Shown piece after piece: positions 36,589 to 44,587 of a stretch of 64,000 bases of DNA (position 1 is the stretch's first letter; each line of letters begins with the position of its first letter). The position numbers were made by a program, and so were the translations under genes. The notes under the pieces were generated by a model. The model did no database searches. It was not told the DNA's origin and saw nothing but the letters and a program-made list of their open reading frames with translations. The stretch is from Algoriphagus sp. TR-M9 (GTDB lineage: Bacteria > Bacteroidota > Bacteroidia > Cytophagales > Cyclobacteriaceae), in NCBI RefSeq assembly GCF_027594545.1, contig NZ_CP115160.1:4460501-4524500 (forward strand). Direction: 5' to 3'.

Positions 36589-37020
36589 CTATCGTAATTC
36601 TCCAAATGCCGTCAAAATCAACCTTCTACCTCCCCCGTATTTGCGAAATTCGCAGAGATAAATTCCCTGCCAAGTTCCAAGGTTGAGTTTTCCACCAGTA
36701 ATCGGGATTTGAAGATGGCTATCAAAAAAACTGGCTTTAATGTGCGCAGGCATATCATCAGGCCCTTCATAAGTGTGGATAAAACGTGGATAAGATTCTG
36801 GAATTAACTCATTTACGAAGGTCTGGAAGTCCTTTCTGACAGTAGGATCAGCATTTTCATTGATAGTCAAAGCAGCAGAAGTATGCTGGATAAAGACTTG
36901 AAGAAATCCGGTTTGGATTTTCCTGATTTCCGGTATTGCCTCTTCTATTTCATCGGTGATCAGATGATACCCTGCGGGAAAAGCGTTTAATTGAAGTTGG
37001 TGTTGGAAAAAACTGTTCAT
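36589..37020 (-). CDS. YjbQ/UPF0047 family protein
   Basis: A 143-residue cytoplasmic protein from the ATG at 37020. The family signatures are FIQHTSAALTINENADP, HTYEGPDDMPAHIKAS and GTWQGIYLCEFR. Members form trimers and some have weak thiamine-phosphate-synthase activity; the family is sometimes annotated as secondary thiamine-phosphate synthase. It is convergent with the glycosidase-like gene. It lies about 2.2 kb from a TPP-riboswitch operon, which may be chance. Confidence 0.9.
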   Translation of the reverse strand: MNSFFQHQLQLNAFPAGYHLITDEIEEAIPEIRKIQTGFLQVFIQHTSAALTINENADPTVRKDFQTFVNELIPESYPRFIHTYEGPDDMPAHIKASFFDSHLQIPITGGKLNLGTWQGIYLCEFRKYGGGRRLILTAFGELR

Positions 37021-37075
37021 TTTCAAAAATAAGGCTAGATCCCGAGATATTAAAAATCGGACTTTCGCCCCTCAT

Positions 37076-39214: not shown

Positions 39215-39245
39215 TTTGGATGGCAATTTTTCCATCTTACCTTTG
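39215..39245 (+). promoter_or_regulatory. consensus Bacteroidota promoter of the TPP operon
   Basis: TTTG at 39215-39218 and TACCTTTG at 39238-39245 are separated by 19 nt. This is a perfect match to TTTG-N19-TAnnTTTG. The expected start is near 39251, a few bases before the riboswitch. Confidence 0.85.
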
Positions 39246-39255
39246 CCAATAGATC

Positions 39256-39331
39256 ATAAGGGGTGCCTTAATAAAACGGGCTGAGATCATACCCATACGA
39301 CCTGATCCGGGTAATGCCGGCGAAGGGAAAT
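39256..39331 (+). promoter_or_regulatory. TPP riboswitch (THI element)
   Basis: The thiamine-pyrophosphate aptamer is recognisable from GGGGTGCC (39260-39267), CTGAGATCATACCC (39281-39294, the pyrimidine-binding CUGAGA), CCTGATCCGGGTAATGCCGG (39301-39320) and CGAAGGGA (39321-39328). The 150-nt expression platform to the ATG at 39481 holds a small CCCGAAAGGG hairpin ending 13 bases before the start codon. CTTTCCC near 39436 could pair with the aptamer's GGGAAA. Translational control is my inference, since no T-rich terminator is present. Confidence 0.95.
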
Positions 39332-39480
39332 GAACGAGCAACATCATACTGGAATCTTTAGCAGAGCGGTACCCTCTGAGCATTTTGCAGTTTTGATGTG
39401 CATGCGGGTAAACAATCACGGAAAACTTCCCCTAAGCTTTCCCATGTTTCACTCAAAATCCCGAAAGGGACATTTATTAC

Positions 39481-41868
39481 ATGAAAAAAGTATTAATAGG
39501 TTTGGCATTTTGCCTAGCCGCAATTTCTAGCTGGGCCCAGCAAAGCCTCAGTGGAAAAGTGCTCGATGCTAGTACTGGTGAACCTCTGGTAGGCGCTTCA
39601 GTCTGGGCAGAAAATCAGGGAAAAGGTGGAGTCACTGACGAAAATGGCCTGTTCACCATCAATAAATTGAACGAAGGAAGTCTGGAACTGCGCGTTTCTT
39701 ACATTGGCTACCTCACGGTCAAGCAGGGCATAACTTTTCCTTATTCAGGAGAGCTGATCTTCAGGCTCCAGCCTACAGAACTGATGACTGAGGAGATCAT
39801 CGTGTCTGCCACGAGGGCCTCGCAAAGTACTCCTACCACGTTTCAGGAGATCAGTAAAGAAGAGCTTGCCAAGCGCAATCTAGGTCAGGATATCCCTATG
39901 CTCTTGAATTTTACGCCTTCTGTAGTGACCAACTCAGATGCTGGTGCAGGAATAGGATACACTGGCATGAGAATTCGAGGATCGGATCAGACCAGAATCA
40001 ATGTGACAGTAAATGGTATTCCTATGAATGACGCAGAGTCCCATGGGGTATTCTGGGTAAATATGCCGGATTTTGCTTCCTCGGTGAATACCATGCAGAT
40101 TCAGCGCGGAGTCGGCACATCTACCAATGGTGCCGCGACTTTTGGCGCAAGCCTGAATATCCAAACGGACACCCGAAATGACGAGGCTTATGCAGAAATC
40201 GATAATTCTGCCGGCTCATTCAATTCCTGGAAACATACCGTAAAAGCCGGAACGGGGCTACTCAATAACCGTTTTGCGGTGGATGCCAGGCTTTCAAAGA
40301 TTTCCTCTGACGGATATGTGGATCGGGCGACTTCTGATTTGCGCTCCTACTTTGTGTCGGCTGGCTTTTATGGGGAAGACCATGTATTGAAGTTGAATGT
40401 GTTTTCAGGAAAGGAAAAGACGTACCAAAGCTGGTACGGACTGCCGGAGTCTAAGCTGGAAGATGACCGAACGTTCAATTACTACACGTACGACAATGAA
40501 ACGGATAACTATCAGCAGGATCACTACCAGCTGATCTATGCAGGTAAAATCGGCGATAACTGGAAAACCAATGCCGCACTACACTACACTTATGGTCGCG
40601 GATATTATGAGCAGTATCGGGAAGATGACGATTTTGCCAGCTATAATTTACCTGATGTGGTGATCGGAGACTCTACCATCAGCAGCACGGACATTATTCG
40701 CAGAAGATGGCTGGACAATGACTTCTACGGTGCAGTTGCCTCCATCAATTATGTCTCTGACAATGGCAAATGGGATGTGGTACTAGGCGGTGGAGCCAAT
40801 CGCTACGATGGTGATCACTTTGGAGAAATCATCTGGGCTAGAATCGCCGGGGATACAGATATTCGGGATCGTTATTATGACAACAATGCCGTCAAAGATG
40901 ACCGGAATATCTATTTGAAAGGGACTTATGAGGTTTCTCCAGGCCTAAATCTCTTTGGAGATCTTCAGGTGCGAGGGATTGACTACTCTTTCATAGGAGT
41001 AAATGACGACGGTAGAATAGTAGATGGAGAAGAAAAATACACCTTCTTCAATCCCAAATTTGGCGCTAGTTATGAGAAAAATGGCCGAACCTGGTATGCC
41101 AGTTTTGCTGTCGCAAACCGTGAGCCTACCCGATCTGATTTCACCGATAATCCGATCACCGAAGTGCCCAGACCTGAGCGGCTCAATAATGTGGAGGCAG
41201 GAATCCGCTCCCAAAGTGGAAGGTTCAGTTACAATGCCAATTTCTACTACATGGGCTACAAAGACCAGCTGATCCAAACCGGGCAAATCAATGATGTGGG
41301 TGCTTATATCCGGGAAAATGTCCCTGATTCATACCGGGCCGGTATAGAACTGGATGGGGCTTACCAGCTTTCTGATGCCTGGGTCATCGGGGGTAATTTG
41401 GCTTTAAGCCAAAATAAAATCAAGGAATTCACCGAGTACATCGATGACTATAGCACAGATGAATTCACACAGGAATCCTTTACCTATACCGATACGGATA
41501 TCGCCTTTTCTCCAAACATAGTTTCCTCGGCGATGATTGAATTCAAGCCTGTCCAGAACCTTTCACTCAACTGGATGAGCAAGTATGTGGGCAAGCAATA
41601 TTTAGATAATACCTCCAATGACGCACGAACCTTGGATGCGTTTTTTACCAATGATTTCAGGGTGAGTTATTCAGTGCAGCCTAGGTATTTCAAAAGCATA
41701 GAGCTGAACCTCATGGTCAATAATGTTTTCAATGAGATGTACGAACCTAATGGCTACACCTTTAGCTATTACGTGCCGGGAGAAAATGAAAAGGAACTGG
41801 TGACAGAGAACTATTACTACCCCATGGCCGGCACTAATTTTATGCTGGGGTTGAGTTTGAAATTCTAA
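39481..41868 (+). CDS. TonB-dependent receptor under TPP control (thiamine-type)
   Basis: A 795-residue outer-membrane receptor with signal peptide (to WAQ), carboxypeptidase-like domain (about 21-100), plug (EEIIVSATRASQSTPTTF onward with RIRGSDQTRINVTVNGIP) and a 22-strand barrel ending LGLSLKF. As the first gene after a TPP riboswitch it most likely imports thiamine or a precursor or a phosphorylated form, like Omr1 receptors of Bacteroides. Unlike those, no PnuT-type inner-membrane transporter or TnR3 kinase gene follows. Confidence 0.88.
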   Translation: MKKVLIGLAFCLAAISSWAQQSLSGKVLDASTGEPLVGASVWAENQGKGGVTDENGLFTINKLNEGSLELRVSYIGYLTVKQGITFPYSGELIFRLQPTELMTEEIIVSATRASQSTPTTFQEISKEELAKRNLGQDIPMLLNFTPSVVTNSDAGAGIGYTGMRIRGSDQTRINVTVNGIPMNDAESHGVFWVNMPDFASSVNTMQIQRGVGTSTNGAATFGASLNIQTDTRNDEAYAEIDNSAGSFNSWKHTVKAGTGLLNNRFAVDARLSKISSDGYVDRATSDLRSYFVSAGFYGEDHVLKLNVFSGKEKTYQSWYGLPESKLEDDRTFNYYTYDNETDNYQQDHYQLIYAGKIGDNWKTNAALHYTYGRGYYEQYREDDDFASYNLPDVVIGDSTISSTDIIRRRWLDNDFYGAVASINYVSDNGKWDVVLGGGANRYDGDHFGEIIWARIAGDTDIRDRYYDNNAVKDDRNIYLKGTYEVSPGLNLFGDLQVRGIDYSFIGVNDDGRIVDGEEKYTFFNPKFGASYEKNGRTWYASFAVANREPTRSDFTDNPITEVPRPERLNNVEAGIRSQSGRFSYNANFYYMGYKDQLIQTGQINDVGAYIRENVPDSYRAGIELDGAYQLSDAWVIGGNLALSQNKIKEFTEYIDDYSTDEFTQESFTYTDTDIAFSPNIVSSAMIEFKPVQNLSLNWMSKYVGKQYLDNTSNDARTLDAFFTNDFRVSYSVQPRYFKSIELNLMVNNVFNEMYEPNGYTFSYYVPGENEKELVTENYYYPMAGTNFMLGLSLKF

Positions 41869-41890
41869 GAAATCTAAGCTGAAGCAAACC

Positions 41891-42613
41891 ATGCAACTCG
41901 AGAAAAAACACTTTGAAATACTTCCAAAAGCGCAGCAAAACTGGCAAAACAGGCCGGAATGGTTTTTCAACCGAGCGCATACTGATACCTATGAACTTTG
42001 GTATGAAGGCAGGTACAAGCGGGCGGAAATCTGGCAAAAGAAGGTGATGGAGCAGCTGGTTTCCAAAGATACCCGGATCAAAACCTTGCTTGAATTTGGC
42101 TGTGGCACCACCAGATTCACCCGCTGGTGGAAGGAAATCGGGATCAAAGCAACCGGAGGGGACATTTCCCCTCTGATGCTTTCCCAAGCCATCAATCTCT
42201 TCGAGGGAGATCTGGTCATGGCAGATTCTCATCACATGCCTTTCAAGGATCATACCTTTGATTCCCTGGCTTTCATTACCACTTTTGAATATTATAAAGA
42301 TCCCGTAAAAGTGATTCGTGAATCTGCCCGTGTGGCCAAATACGGTATCGCGATGGGTATGATGAACCGAAATTCCCCTAAAGTACTGAGGCGGAGGGTA
42401 CAGCAGGTTTTTGGCAAAAATCCGTTCTACGTGACAGCTACATTTTATACTCCTGCCATGCTGATCAAAATCATTGAAGAGGCATTGCAAGGAAGGGAAT
42501 ATACCATAGAATGGTCGTGCACAGGTTTGCCCAAGTGGTTTCCGGTGCAGCAATGGAGCGTTCCGTACGGAGATTTCTTTGGCTTATATGTGAAATTCAC
42601 AGATGTAGACTGA
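41891..42613 (+). CDS. SAM-dependent methyltransferase in the TPP operon
   Basis: A 240-residue class I methyltransferase with motif I LLEFGCGTTRFTRWW (near 66), acidic GGDISPLM, motif IV FDSLAFITTFEY and a basic region PKVLRRRVQQV. It resembles Ubie/BioC-type small-molecule enzymes. It starts 22 bp after the receptor gene and its stop shares bases with the next ATG (ATGA). A methyltransferase is not part of any known thiamine route. A Trm112-like protein, a known methyltransferase activator fold, is encoded three genes later in the same operon. Confidence 0.82.
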   Translation: MQLEKKHFEILPKAQQNWQNRPEWFFNRAHTDTYELWYEGRYKRAEIWQKKVMEQLVSKDTRIKTLLEFGCGTTRFTRWWKEIGIKATGGDISPLMLSQAINLFEGDLVMADSHHMPFKDHTFDSLAFITTFEYYKDPVKVIRESARVAKYGIAMGMMNRNSPKVLRRRVQQVFGKNPFYVTATFYTPAMLIKIIEEALQGREYTIEWSCTGLPKWFPVQQWSVPYGDFFGLYVKFTDVD

Positions 42614-43665
42614 TGGCAGAGCTGGGCAAAATCAATCACGAAGGGTATCAAAACTTGCTTGCAGGCAGGCTGGGTGCGCTGCGCCCAGAAGTAAGACAAG
42701 GGCCAGATTTTGGGGTAGATGTTTCGATTACTGCTTTGCCGGGAGGTTTGGCCATGGCGGCCACCAGCGATCCTTTGTCATTGATTCCTTCCCTGGGATT
42801 GCAGGAATCGGCCTGGCTCAGCGTGCACCTCATGGCAAATGACATGGCGACTACTGGTTTTGCCCCGCAATATGGGCAGTTTGTATTGAACCTTCCGGAT
42901 ACGTTAAGCAATGAAGACTTTAGTACCTACTGGGGTTTTATTGATCGCTATTGTAAAGAAATCGGAGTAGCTATTACAGGGGGACATACCGGTTTTGTGC
43001 CAGGACAAAATTCAACTTTCGCCGGTGGCGGTACCTTGATTACCATTGCTCCAGAATCAGAAATGGTCTGTGCTACTGGTGCGAAAGAGGGTGATGTGAT
43101 TTTGGTGACCAAGTCCTGTGCTTTGACGGCCACGGCGATTTTGGGAATGAGCTTCCCTGAAACCATCAAGAATAAGCTGGGGAAAGAAATCTATGAGTCT
43201 GCCTGCGCGCAATTCTATCAAACTTCTTCGCTGAAAGATGGCTTGATCGCAGCCGGGCAAAGCGAGAAATTCCCGGAAATCACAGCCATGCACGATGTGA
43301 CGGAAGGCGGAGTATTAGGAGCGATTTACGAAATGTTGACTGCTTCAGGAAAAGGTGGAAGAATAGAAAATGACTTGATTCCTGTGGGAGAAATAGCTTC
43401 CCAAATTTCTACGTTATTTGATTTAGACCCACGCTACTGTGTGGGAGCTGGGGCAATGGTGATTTCCTGCAATTCTGAGAAATCGGATGAATTGATCTCC
43501 AGATTGGCAAAAGCAAACATTGCCTGCGCAGCTGTGGGCACCGTGAAATCTGCGGAATCTGGCATTATGCTGAGCGAGAAAGAATCGGTATCCCCGCTCA
43601 TTTACCAAGAAACTGATCCCTACTGGGCGGCCTATTTCAACGCATTAAAGCAAGGATGGAAATGA
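42613..43665 (+). CDS. AIR-synthase-related (HypE/ThiL-like) ATP-binding protein
   Basis: A 350-residue protein of the PurM/HypE/ThiL superfamily, from the ATG at 42613. The N-terminal half has TSDPLSLIPSLG and HLMANDMATTGFAPQYGQF; the C-terminal half has ITGGHTGFVPGQNSTFAGGG, MHDVTEGGVLGAIYEML and DPRYCVGAGAMV. ThiL is the thiamine-monophosphate kinase of this superfamily, so in a TPP-controlled operon it may replace ThiL. Its motifs are nearer the HypE-like AIR-synthase-related group. It overlaps the methyltransferase and ThiE-like genes. Confidence 0.78.
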   Translation: MAELGKINHEGYQNLLAGRLGALRPEVRQGPDFGVDVSITALPGGLAMAATSDPLSLIPSLGLQESAWLSVHLMANDMATTGFAPQYGQFVLNLPDTLSNEDFSTYWGFIDRYCKEIGVAITGGHTGFVPGQNSTFAGGGTLITIAPESEMVCATGAKEGDVILVTKSCALTATAILGMSFPETIKNKLGKEIYESACAQFYQTSSLKDGLIAAGQSEKFPEITAMHDVTEGGVLGAIYEMLTASGKGGRIENDLIPVGEIASQISTLFDLDPRYCVGAGAMVISCNSEKSDELISRLAKANIACAAVGTVKSAESGIMLSEKESVSPLIYQETDPYWAAYFNALKQGWK

Positions 43666-44306
43666 AAAAACAAGATAAAATAGCTGGAGGACTGTACCTG
43701 GTCATAGACCCGGGCAAAGATGAGGCTGAACTTTTAGGTACATTGGAACAGGCCTTAAAAGCAAGACCCTGCGCCGTTCAGATCTGGGACAACTTTGCCG
43801 AACATTCTGCTGTACCTGCTTTGATCGGTAGGATCAAGGTGCTTTGTAATGCGGCATCCGTTCCGCTTTTGATCAATAATCACCCAGAGTGGGTCGAGCT
43901 TTTCGATCTGGACGGAGTGCACTTTGACGAAGTCAATCAGCTTTCGGAAAGCTGCCTGAGAGCCTTTAAGGGTATGGGCAAAACGGTGGGGCTGACCACC
44001 AATAATGATTTTGAAGCGATCAAGGCAGCGGTGTATTCCGGTATAGATTACCTTTCTTTTTGCTCTATGTTTCCCTCTGGCACCAGTAACAGTTGTGAGC
44101 TGGTGGACTTTGATACGGTGATCAAAACCAGGGAGATCACCAGCATACCGATTTTCTTGGCAGGAGGAATAAACCCGGAAAATCTAGCACAACTAGGAAG
44201 CTTGAAGTTTGACGGAATCGCGGTGGTCTCAGGTGTGATGAGCGCCGAAGATCCTCAAGCAGCCATTTTGAAATATCAACAAGCCCTTTCAATACTTAAA
44301 TCATGA
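43656..44306 (+). CDS. divergent thiamine-phosphate-synthase-like protein
   Basis: A 216-residue TIM-barrel of the ThiE/TenI superfamily, starting at 43656 (or 43662) inside the previous gene. Recognisable blocks are GLYLVIDPG, PLLINNHPEWVELF, GVHFDEVNQL, DYLSFCSMFP and IFLAGGINPENLAQLG. Canonical ThiE residues are changed: the VQLRDK block is VQIWDN, INDR is INNH and GVHLGQED is GVHFDEVN. It may therefore act on a different substrate or be non-catalytic like TenI. It overlaps the Trm112-like gene by ATGA. Confidence 0.75.
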   Translation: MEMKKQDKIAGGLYLVIDPGKDEAELLGTLEQALKARPCAVQIWDNFAEHSAVPALIGRIKVLCNAASVPLLINNHPEWVELFDLDGVHFDEVNQLSESCLRAFKGMGKTVGLTTNNDFEAIKAAVYSGIDYLSFCSMFPSGTSNSCELVDFDTVIKTREITSIPIFLAGGINPENLAQLGSLKFDGIAVVSGVMSAEDPQAAILKYQQALSILKS

Positions 44307-44587
44307 AACTAGAAACAATAGCCAAACTATGCTGTCCTTTTGATAAAGAGGATCTGGAATTGAAAACCATACTGACCGATGATCAGGATAATATCCTGGA
44401 AGGCTGGTTGACTTGTGGATCCTGCACACGTATTTACCCAATCATCAAGGGGATTCCTATCATGAACCCGGATGAGTACCGTGAGGAGCATCTGGAGCAG
44501 CCGGTATTGGACCGTTGGCAAAAGCAATTGGAAGGAAAAGAAATTAAGGATTTTAGGCTTTTGGAGGGAAATTCAAAGGATACCTAG
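44303..44587 (+). CDS. Trm112-like zinc protein
   Basis: A 94-residue protein of the Trm112p/UPF0434 type. It has a zinc site made from CCPFDKEDL near 10 and CGSC near 37, then RIYPIIKGIPIMNPDE, the hydrophobic strand that in Trm112 docks to methyltransferase partners. It is the last gene of the TPP operon and overlaps the convergent membrane-protein gene by 15 bp. Its partner may be the methyltransferase at 41891-42613; this is inference. Confidence 0.8.
   Translation: MKLETIAKLCCPFDKEDLELKTILTDDQDNILEGWLTCGSCTRIYPIIKGIPIMNPDEYREEHLEQPVLDRWQKQLEGKEIKDFRLLEGNSKDT

Follow-up and report, generated by a model that had tools for sequence, protein, structure and literature searches.

A stretch of 64,000 nucleotides from Algoriphagus sp. 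TR-M9 (contig NZ_CP115160.1, positions 4,460,501 to 4,524,500; the whole of it is called the window below) carries an operon headed by a thiamine pyrophosphate (TPP) riboswitch, four genes of which form a conserved module: a class I S-adenosylmethionine (SAM)-dependent methyltransferase, a HypE/AIR-synthase-like (AIRS) ATPase, a protein of ThiE fold and a Trm112-like protein. The module is a gene set without prior description in the literature searched. We favour the view, at a probability of roughly one half (0.52), that it is a TPP-repressed, undescribed route of thiamine supply, by synthesis or salvage, that operates without ThiC, ThiD, ThiG and ThiE. Thiamine metabolism is among the best-mapped of vitamin pathways, and its genes are well signposted by TPP riboswitches; a TPP-controlled set of four genes, present mostly where the classical enzymes are undetected, points to a missing pathway or to a form of vitamin B1 in the environment that has gone unrecognised. 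With it one could also test whether a Trm112 methyltransferase may act on a small molecule.

The operon lies on the forward strand:

39215..39245, +, promoter TTTG-N19-TACCTTTG, read from the sequence and found by pattern match, ending immediately 5' of the aptamer; it fits the Bacteroidota promoter consensus
39249..39345, +, complete TPP riboswitch aptamer (RF00059, 66.1 bits against a gathering score of 54.3)
39481..41868, +, TonB-dependent receptor with carboxypeptidase-regulatory domain, plug and barrel (Pfam)
41891..42613, +, module gene 1, class I SAM-dependent methyltransferase (Pfam Methyltransf_11, 60.8 bits)
42613..43665, +, module gene 2, AIRS-superfamily ATPase, nearest HypE (Pfam AIRS_C and AIRS)
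43656..44306, +, module gene 3, ThiE/TenI-fold protein (TMP-TENI, 107.3 bits)
44303..44587, +, module gene 4, Trm112-like zinc protein (Pfam PF03966, 30.6 bits against a cut-off of 22)

The Pfam matches of all five genes exceed their cut-offs, and the aptamer is the only Rfam match above gathering in the whole window. Successive overlaps among the last four genes are of 1 bp (TGATG), 10 bp and 4 bp (ATGA). For the AIRS gene, whose longest open reading frame (ORF) begins at 42511, the ATG at 42613 was chosen, giving 350 aa as in relatives. The promoter, aptamer, five genes and overlaps had all been proposed in an earlier reading of the bare sequence (the original prediction), and the Rfam, Pfam, ORF and pattern searches confirm them.

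Conservation was assessed in two samples. One-per-species genomes were searched with the methyltransferase, and of the 137 places matched the best 80 loci were kept; 238 Bacteroidota genomes drawn evenly from the phylum, searched at a threshold of E 1e-40, contributed seven further carriers, making 87 relatives and, with the window, 88 loci. The stretch searched for a TPP motif began 500 nt upstream of the start of the methyltransferase's longest ORF and ended 400 nt downstream of it, and every relative had one there (80/80 scan loci, 7/7 phylum-sample carriers). Only seven additional matches to the motif occur across the 1.24 million bases of the 80 loci, so chance cannot have placed one at every methyltransferase: the position of the four genes behind a TPP motif is far beyond chance. 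At 21 of the 22 loci tested the element also reaches the RF00059 gathering score, the exception being L099. The TPP link of the gene set, as originally predicted, withstands the refuting condition set for it, a lack of the riboswitch in most genomes with these genes: the motif precedes them in all 87 relatives.

The gene order methyltransferase, AIRS, ThiE-like, Trm112 is complete wherever the contig does not truncate the locus (85/85); in the other two the contig runs out after the second gene (L071) and after the first (L077). The five-gene order of the window does not recur: the 87 relatives start at the methyltransferase, with no TonB receptor between it and the riboswitch, and the window alone among the 88 loci has a receptor inside the operon. 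No other neighbour family exceeds 11 of the 80 neighbourhoods. With no relative having the receptor in that place and no other family widely shared, the conserved unit is the module of four genes. An operon extending beyond them was considered and rejected, the flanks not being conserved; none of six downstream genes tested has an evident link to thiamine.

Between aptamer and methyltransferase, 61/87 relatives have a hairpin followed by a T-run. Five mononucleotide shuffles gave 7 to 15 of 87, and the excess suggests that TPP terminates transcription in most relatives. Four of 12 terminator-like hairpins examined (L033, L038, L047 and L070), all within 170 nt 3' of the aptamer, have a GCTCCATT stem in common across genera; this may be a conserved expression platform. 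The promoter pattern is found in only 17/87 relatives (shuffled mean 0.5, maximum 3).

The riboswitch of the window is of another type. Module aptamers (n=87) have a median identity to each other of 82%, whereas that of the window has a median of 65% and a maximum of 74% to them, and is 79% identical to the aptamer preceding a PnuC-like gene of the same genome. That second element is the following:

L095:5149-5802 (genome C1:1505148-1505801), -, second TPP element preceding a PnuC-family transporter (TIGR01528), 47.1 bits, below gathering

The transporter is possibly PnuT; an ORF of 357 aa follows it. The simplest reading of these identities is that the module of the window has moved behind a different riboswitch and receptor and lost its own riboswitch. 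As the replacement is still a TPP aptamer, control by TPP seems to have been exchanged, not lost, and its survival is a further argument for a role in thiamine metabolism. The TonB receptor, judged by its riboswitch, is a possible outer-membrane thiamine receptor that stands outside the conserved module.

Known TPP-controlled thiamine operons of Bacteroidota are of the types OMthi, pnuT-tnr3 and thiSEGCHF-tenI, according to the accessible part of PMC5613172. The window operon resembles them in its riboswitch and in having a TonB receptor as first gene, and the same genome has the PnuC-like gene behind its second TPP element; it differs in lacking PnuT, a kinase and ThiS, ThiG, ThiC, ThiH and ThiF, the module following the receptor instead. 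The module genes are outside the operons described there, and the term 'methyltransferase' appears nowhere in the main text of that paper. Among the papers listed by searches of the open-licence full-text literature, which mostly excludes subscription papers and preprints, none describes the four-gene set in its title or abstract; the available portion of PMC9425974 mentions Trm112 once, in archaea and without thiamine.

Which classical thiamine genes accompany the module was determined in 57 carriers: the window genome, the seven from the phylum sample and 49 genomes reached from 50 of the 80 loci. For ThiE, ThiD and ThiG we used bit thresholds of our own (100, 130 and 300), placed at gaps in the score lists. 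ThiC is present in six carriers, one match being partial, and missing from 51; it is present in 83/230 phylum-sample non-carriers (Fisher p 1e-4, uncorrected for kinship and for the choice of most carriers by similarity). ThiG above 300 bits occurs in four, leaving 53 without a full-length protein; the curated cut-off gives 29/57, of which 25 are partial and score no more than 32 bits. ThiD-like proteins above 130 bits are found in five, weaker partial matches being common, and the NCBIfam ThiD cut-off is passed in 0/60. A second ThiE-family protein above 100 bits lies outside the module in eight carriers and in none of the other 49 (4/56 by the curated cut-off). ThiL is present in all 57, the match in G272 being partial. 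One genome, G268, in which no other classical enzyme was detected, has a partial ThiC-like match (G268:C46:75559-76533, 192.7 bits, positions 47-375).

These counts bear on the possibility that the module merely completes ordinary thiamine synthesis, the ThiE-fold protein being a divergent synthase of thiamine monophosphate (TMP), the AIRS protein a second TMP kinase, and the methyltransferase and Trm112 passengers. In its favour, the ThiE-fold protein has ThiE as its closest fold and is the sole ThiE-family match in the window genome, and the AIRS protein has some similarity to ThiL (57.0 bits). Both nevertheless fall short of the NCBIfam cut-offs: 96.9 against 145.1 bits for thiE, and 57.0 against 184.15 for thiL. 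The ThiE-fold family retains the thiazole-phosphate site. Two invariant cysteines and a Q-x-W-D motif set it apart from ThiE (TMP synthase) and TenI (thiazole tautomerase). At R59, K61, D93, D112 and K159 (B. subtilis ThiE numbering), which we take to be the pyrophosphate and Mg residues of the hydroxymethylpyrimidine pyrophosphate (HMP-PP) site, it has W (42/42), N or H (42), N (42), P (39/42) and A or S (37/42). By these substitutions the presumed HMP-PP site is lost. The accessible text of PMC3144219 does not give ThiE residue numbers. Completion also sits badly with the 52 of 57 carriers that have no ThiD-like match above 130 bits, with the true ThiL that each of the 57 possesses, and with a methyltransferase that is the most conserved member, unlike a passenger; we regard it as unlikely.

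The AIRS protein has both AIRS domains and four invariant aspartates (36, 53, 77 and 228 in 80/80 sequences) in common with HypE, SelD, ThiL and PurM, and it remains under every curated cut-off listed for them, hypE (63.7 against 251.6 bits) and selD included. Its best profile match is HypE, nearer than ThiL, and a true ThiL is encoded elsewhere in the window genome (324.4 bits). Phosphorylation by a ThiL-like protein, part of the original prediction, is therefore not supported as the likeliest step. HypE and PurM use ATP to activate amide or thioamide oxygens; activation of this kind would fit the AIRS profile better than ThiL-like phosphorylation, which is still one option.

At least 95% invariance is found in 153 of 240 columns of the methyltransferase alignment (81 sequences), and the median pair identity is 0.83. 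Its predicted structure has a mean predicted local distance difference test (pLDDT) score of 62.4, probably through too uniform an alignment, and was left out of the fold search. The best solved matches are the unnamed methyltransferases 3l8d and 1vlm. The methyltransferase profile also reaches 6f5z_A, weakly (E 0.0011), and the Trm112 protein 6f5z_C, two chains of one PDB entry; 6f5z is missing among the matches listed for the single methyltransferase sequence. Solved relatives include an 18S rRNA methyltransferase (6g4w/7wtw), and we take this and 6f5z to be Trm112 complexes or partners. The Trm112 protein, which exceeds the PF03966 gathering score and stays below the NCBIfam Trm112_arch cut-off (58.3 against 77), keeps cysteines 10, 11, 38 and 41 in 79/79 sequences, presumably the zinc site. 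In matching the 6f5z chains and keeping the four cysteines the pair resembles Trm112-methyltransferase holoenzymes, and from this likeness we infer that Trm112 would activate the methyltransferase; it differs from them in sitting in a TPP-controlled operon with thiamine-type enzymes.

To our knowledge the substrates of all familiar Trm112 methyltransferase partners are RNA or protein, and the module might accordingly be a response to TPP scarcity that modifies such macromolecules, tuning translation or TPP-dependent enzymes and taking no part in thiamine synthesis. The rRNA methyltransferase among the solved relatives and the high identity of the module enzyme are consistent with this. It would leave unexplained why a ThiE-fold protein and an AIRS ATPase share the operon; the patchy spread of the module, in 8/238 genomes, would be odd for a core RNA modification; and the solved structures that match best are the unnamed ones. 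Such a response seems to us improbable. Less probable again is the repair of damaged thiamine, in which the HypE/PurM-like ATPase acts on a ring-opened formamide, closing it again or activating it, while the ThiE-fold protein holds the thiazole-phosphate end and the methyltransferase traps or tags a side product: it would make good use of the ATP-driven chemistry of HypE and PurM, of the HypE-like AIRS profile and of the retained thiazole-phosphate site, but it is an argument from chemistry alone and gives methylation no explained role. Synthesis of a bacimethrin-like thiamine antimetabolite we consider very improbable, for although the thiaminase I/bacimethrin operons of Paenibacillus likewise combine a TPP riboswitch, a SAM methyltransferase and a ThiE-family gene (accessible part of PMC5627462), the module lacks their thymidylate synthase, deoxyribosyltransferase, thiaminase, ThiM and pyrimidine kinase (ThiD).

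The thiamine-supply route that we prefer would be switched on when TPP is scarce, and would either salvage an unrecognised thiamine-related compound or make thiamine by an alternative synthesis. The methyltransferase-Trm112 pair would methylate a small thiamine-related molecule, aromatic or cationic; the ATPase would activate an amide- or thioamide-like oxygen, or phosphorylate; and the ThiE-fold enzyme would hold a thiazole-phosphate-like compound, its cysteine site replacing HMP-PP chemistry. The product might join at TMP or thiamine, whence ThiL would lead to TPP. The regulatory element, the gene composition and the genomic setting are observed; these substrates, the order of steps and the point of entry are proposals. 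Riboswitch and TonB receptor ahead of the module would, in the window genome, couple uptake with processing. The scheme first proposed for this locus, import followed by methylation and phosphorylation, is supported in part. The link to TPP survives; import as a component is not supported (no receptor between riboswitch and methyltransferase in 87 relatives), nor is ThiL-like phosphorylation as the likeliest step, and methylation of a thiamine-related compound is conjectural. A more exact version, an unrecognised enzymatic route to TMP without ThiC, ThiD, ThiG and ThiE that uses a Trm112-activated small-molecule methyltransferase, a HypE-like ATPase and a cysteine-bearing ThiE-fold enzyme, encoded by a four-gene TPP-controlled cassette exchanged among Bacteroidota, is offered tentatively, as a possibility we hold to be rather unlikely.

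Several observations weigh against a thiamine-supply route. Five carriers (G250, G255, G260, G279 and G280) combine the module with full-length ThiC, ThiD-like and ThiE genes, and it is therefore not a mere substitute for them; among these carriers, G260 has a ThiE slightly below the cut-off and a full ThiG is missing from G279. ThiC is rare in the sampled Bacteroidota genera anyway (18/118), and within the phylum sample alone the contrast shrinks to 0/8 carriers against 83/230 (p = 0.05). ThiL is present in 170/230 non-carriers too (Fisher p 6e-7 against carriers, kinship and carrier choice uncorrected; 8/8 carriers in the phylum sample alone, p = 0.2); being common in genomes without the module, it was rejected as a module-specific marker. 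The phylum baselines cover ThiC and ThiL, while ThiD, ThiG and ThiE were counted in carriers only, and the statement that classical enzymes are mostly undetected concerns ThiC, ThiD, ThiG and ThiE and does not extend to TenA, ThiM, thiamine kinase and pyrophosphokinase. All loci were collected through the methyltransferase, which places the other three genes outside the sampling wherever they occur without it. Invariant Arg and Lys residues in the methyltransferase would also suit a macromolecular substrate, and the hairpin test that succeeds in most relatives detects no terminator-like hairpin in the window itself.

Near the window operon, 2.2 kb upstream of the riboswitch and on the opposite strand (36589-37026, -), lies a gene for YjbQ, 'secondary thiamine-phosphate synthase enzyme' (TIGR00149, 127.8 bits against 67.75), which could have TMP synthase side activity; the ORFs kept from the 80 loci include no YjbQ match.

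The module is rare, its methyltransferase occurring in 8/238 Bacteroidota genomes with the window genome counted, and the other seven show the identical gene order. Scan loci come from Algoriphagus, Cyclobacterium, Arenibacter, Salegentibacter, Chryseobacterium, Pedobacter, Sphingobacterium, Parapedobacter, Runella, Mucilaginibacter and others. The three other sampled genomes of the same genus as the window (G076, G111, G194) have no methyltransferase match at E 1e-40, though several Algoriphagus have the module; this patchiness within a genus reflects frequent gain or loss. Carriage on plasmids was considered and rejected: the methyltransferase was unmatched in 72,556 plasmid records at 1e-20. 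Two Arenibacter genomes have two copies of the module each (L044 and L048; L047 and L049), with a TPP motif for each copy, and the first pair lie about 32 kb apart on one contig.

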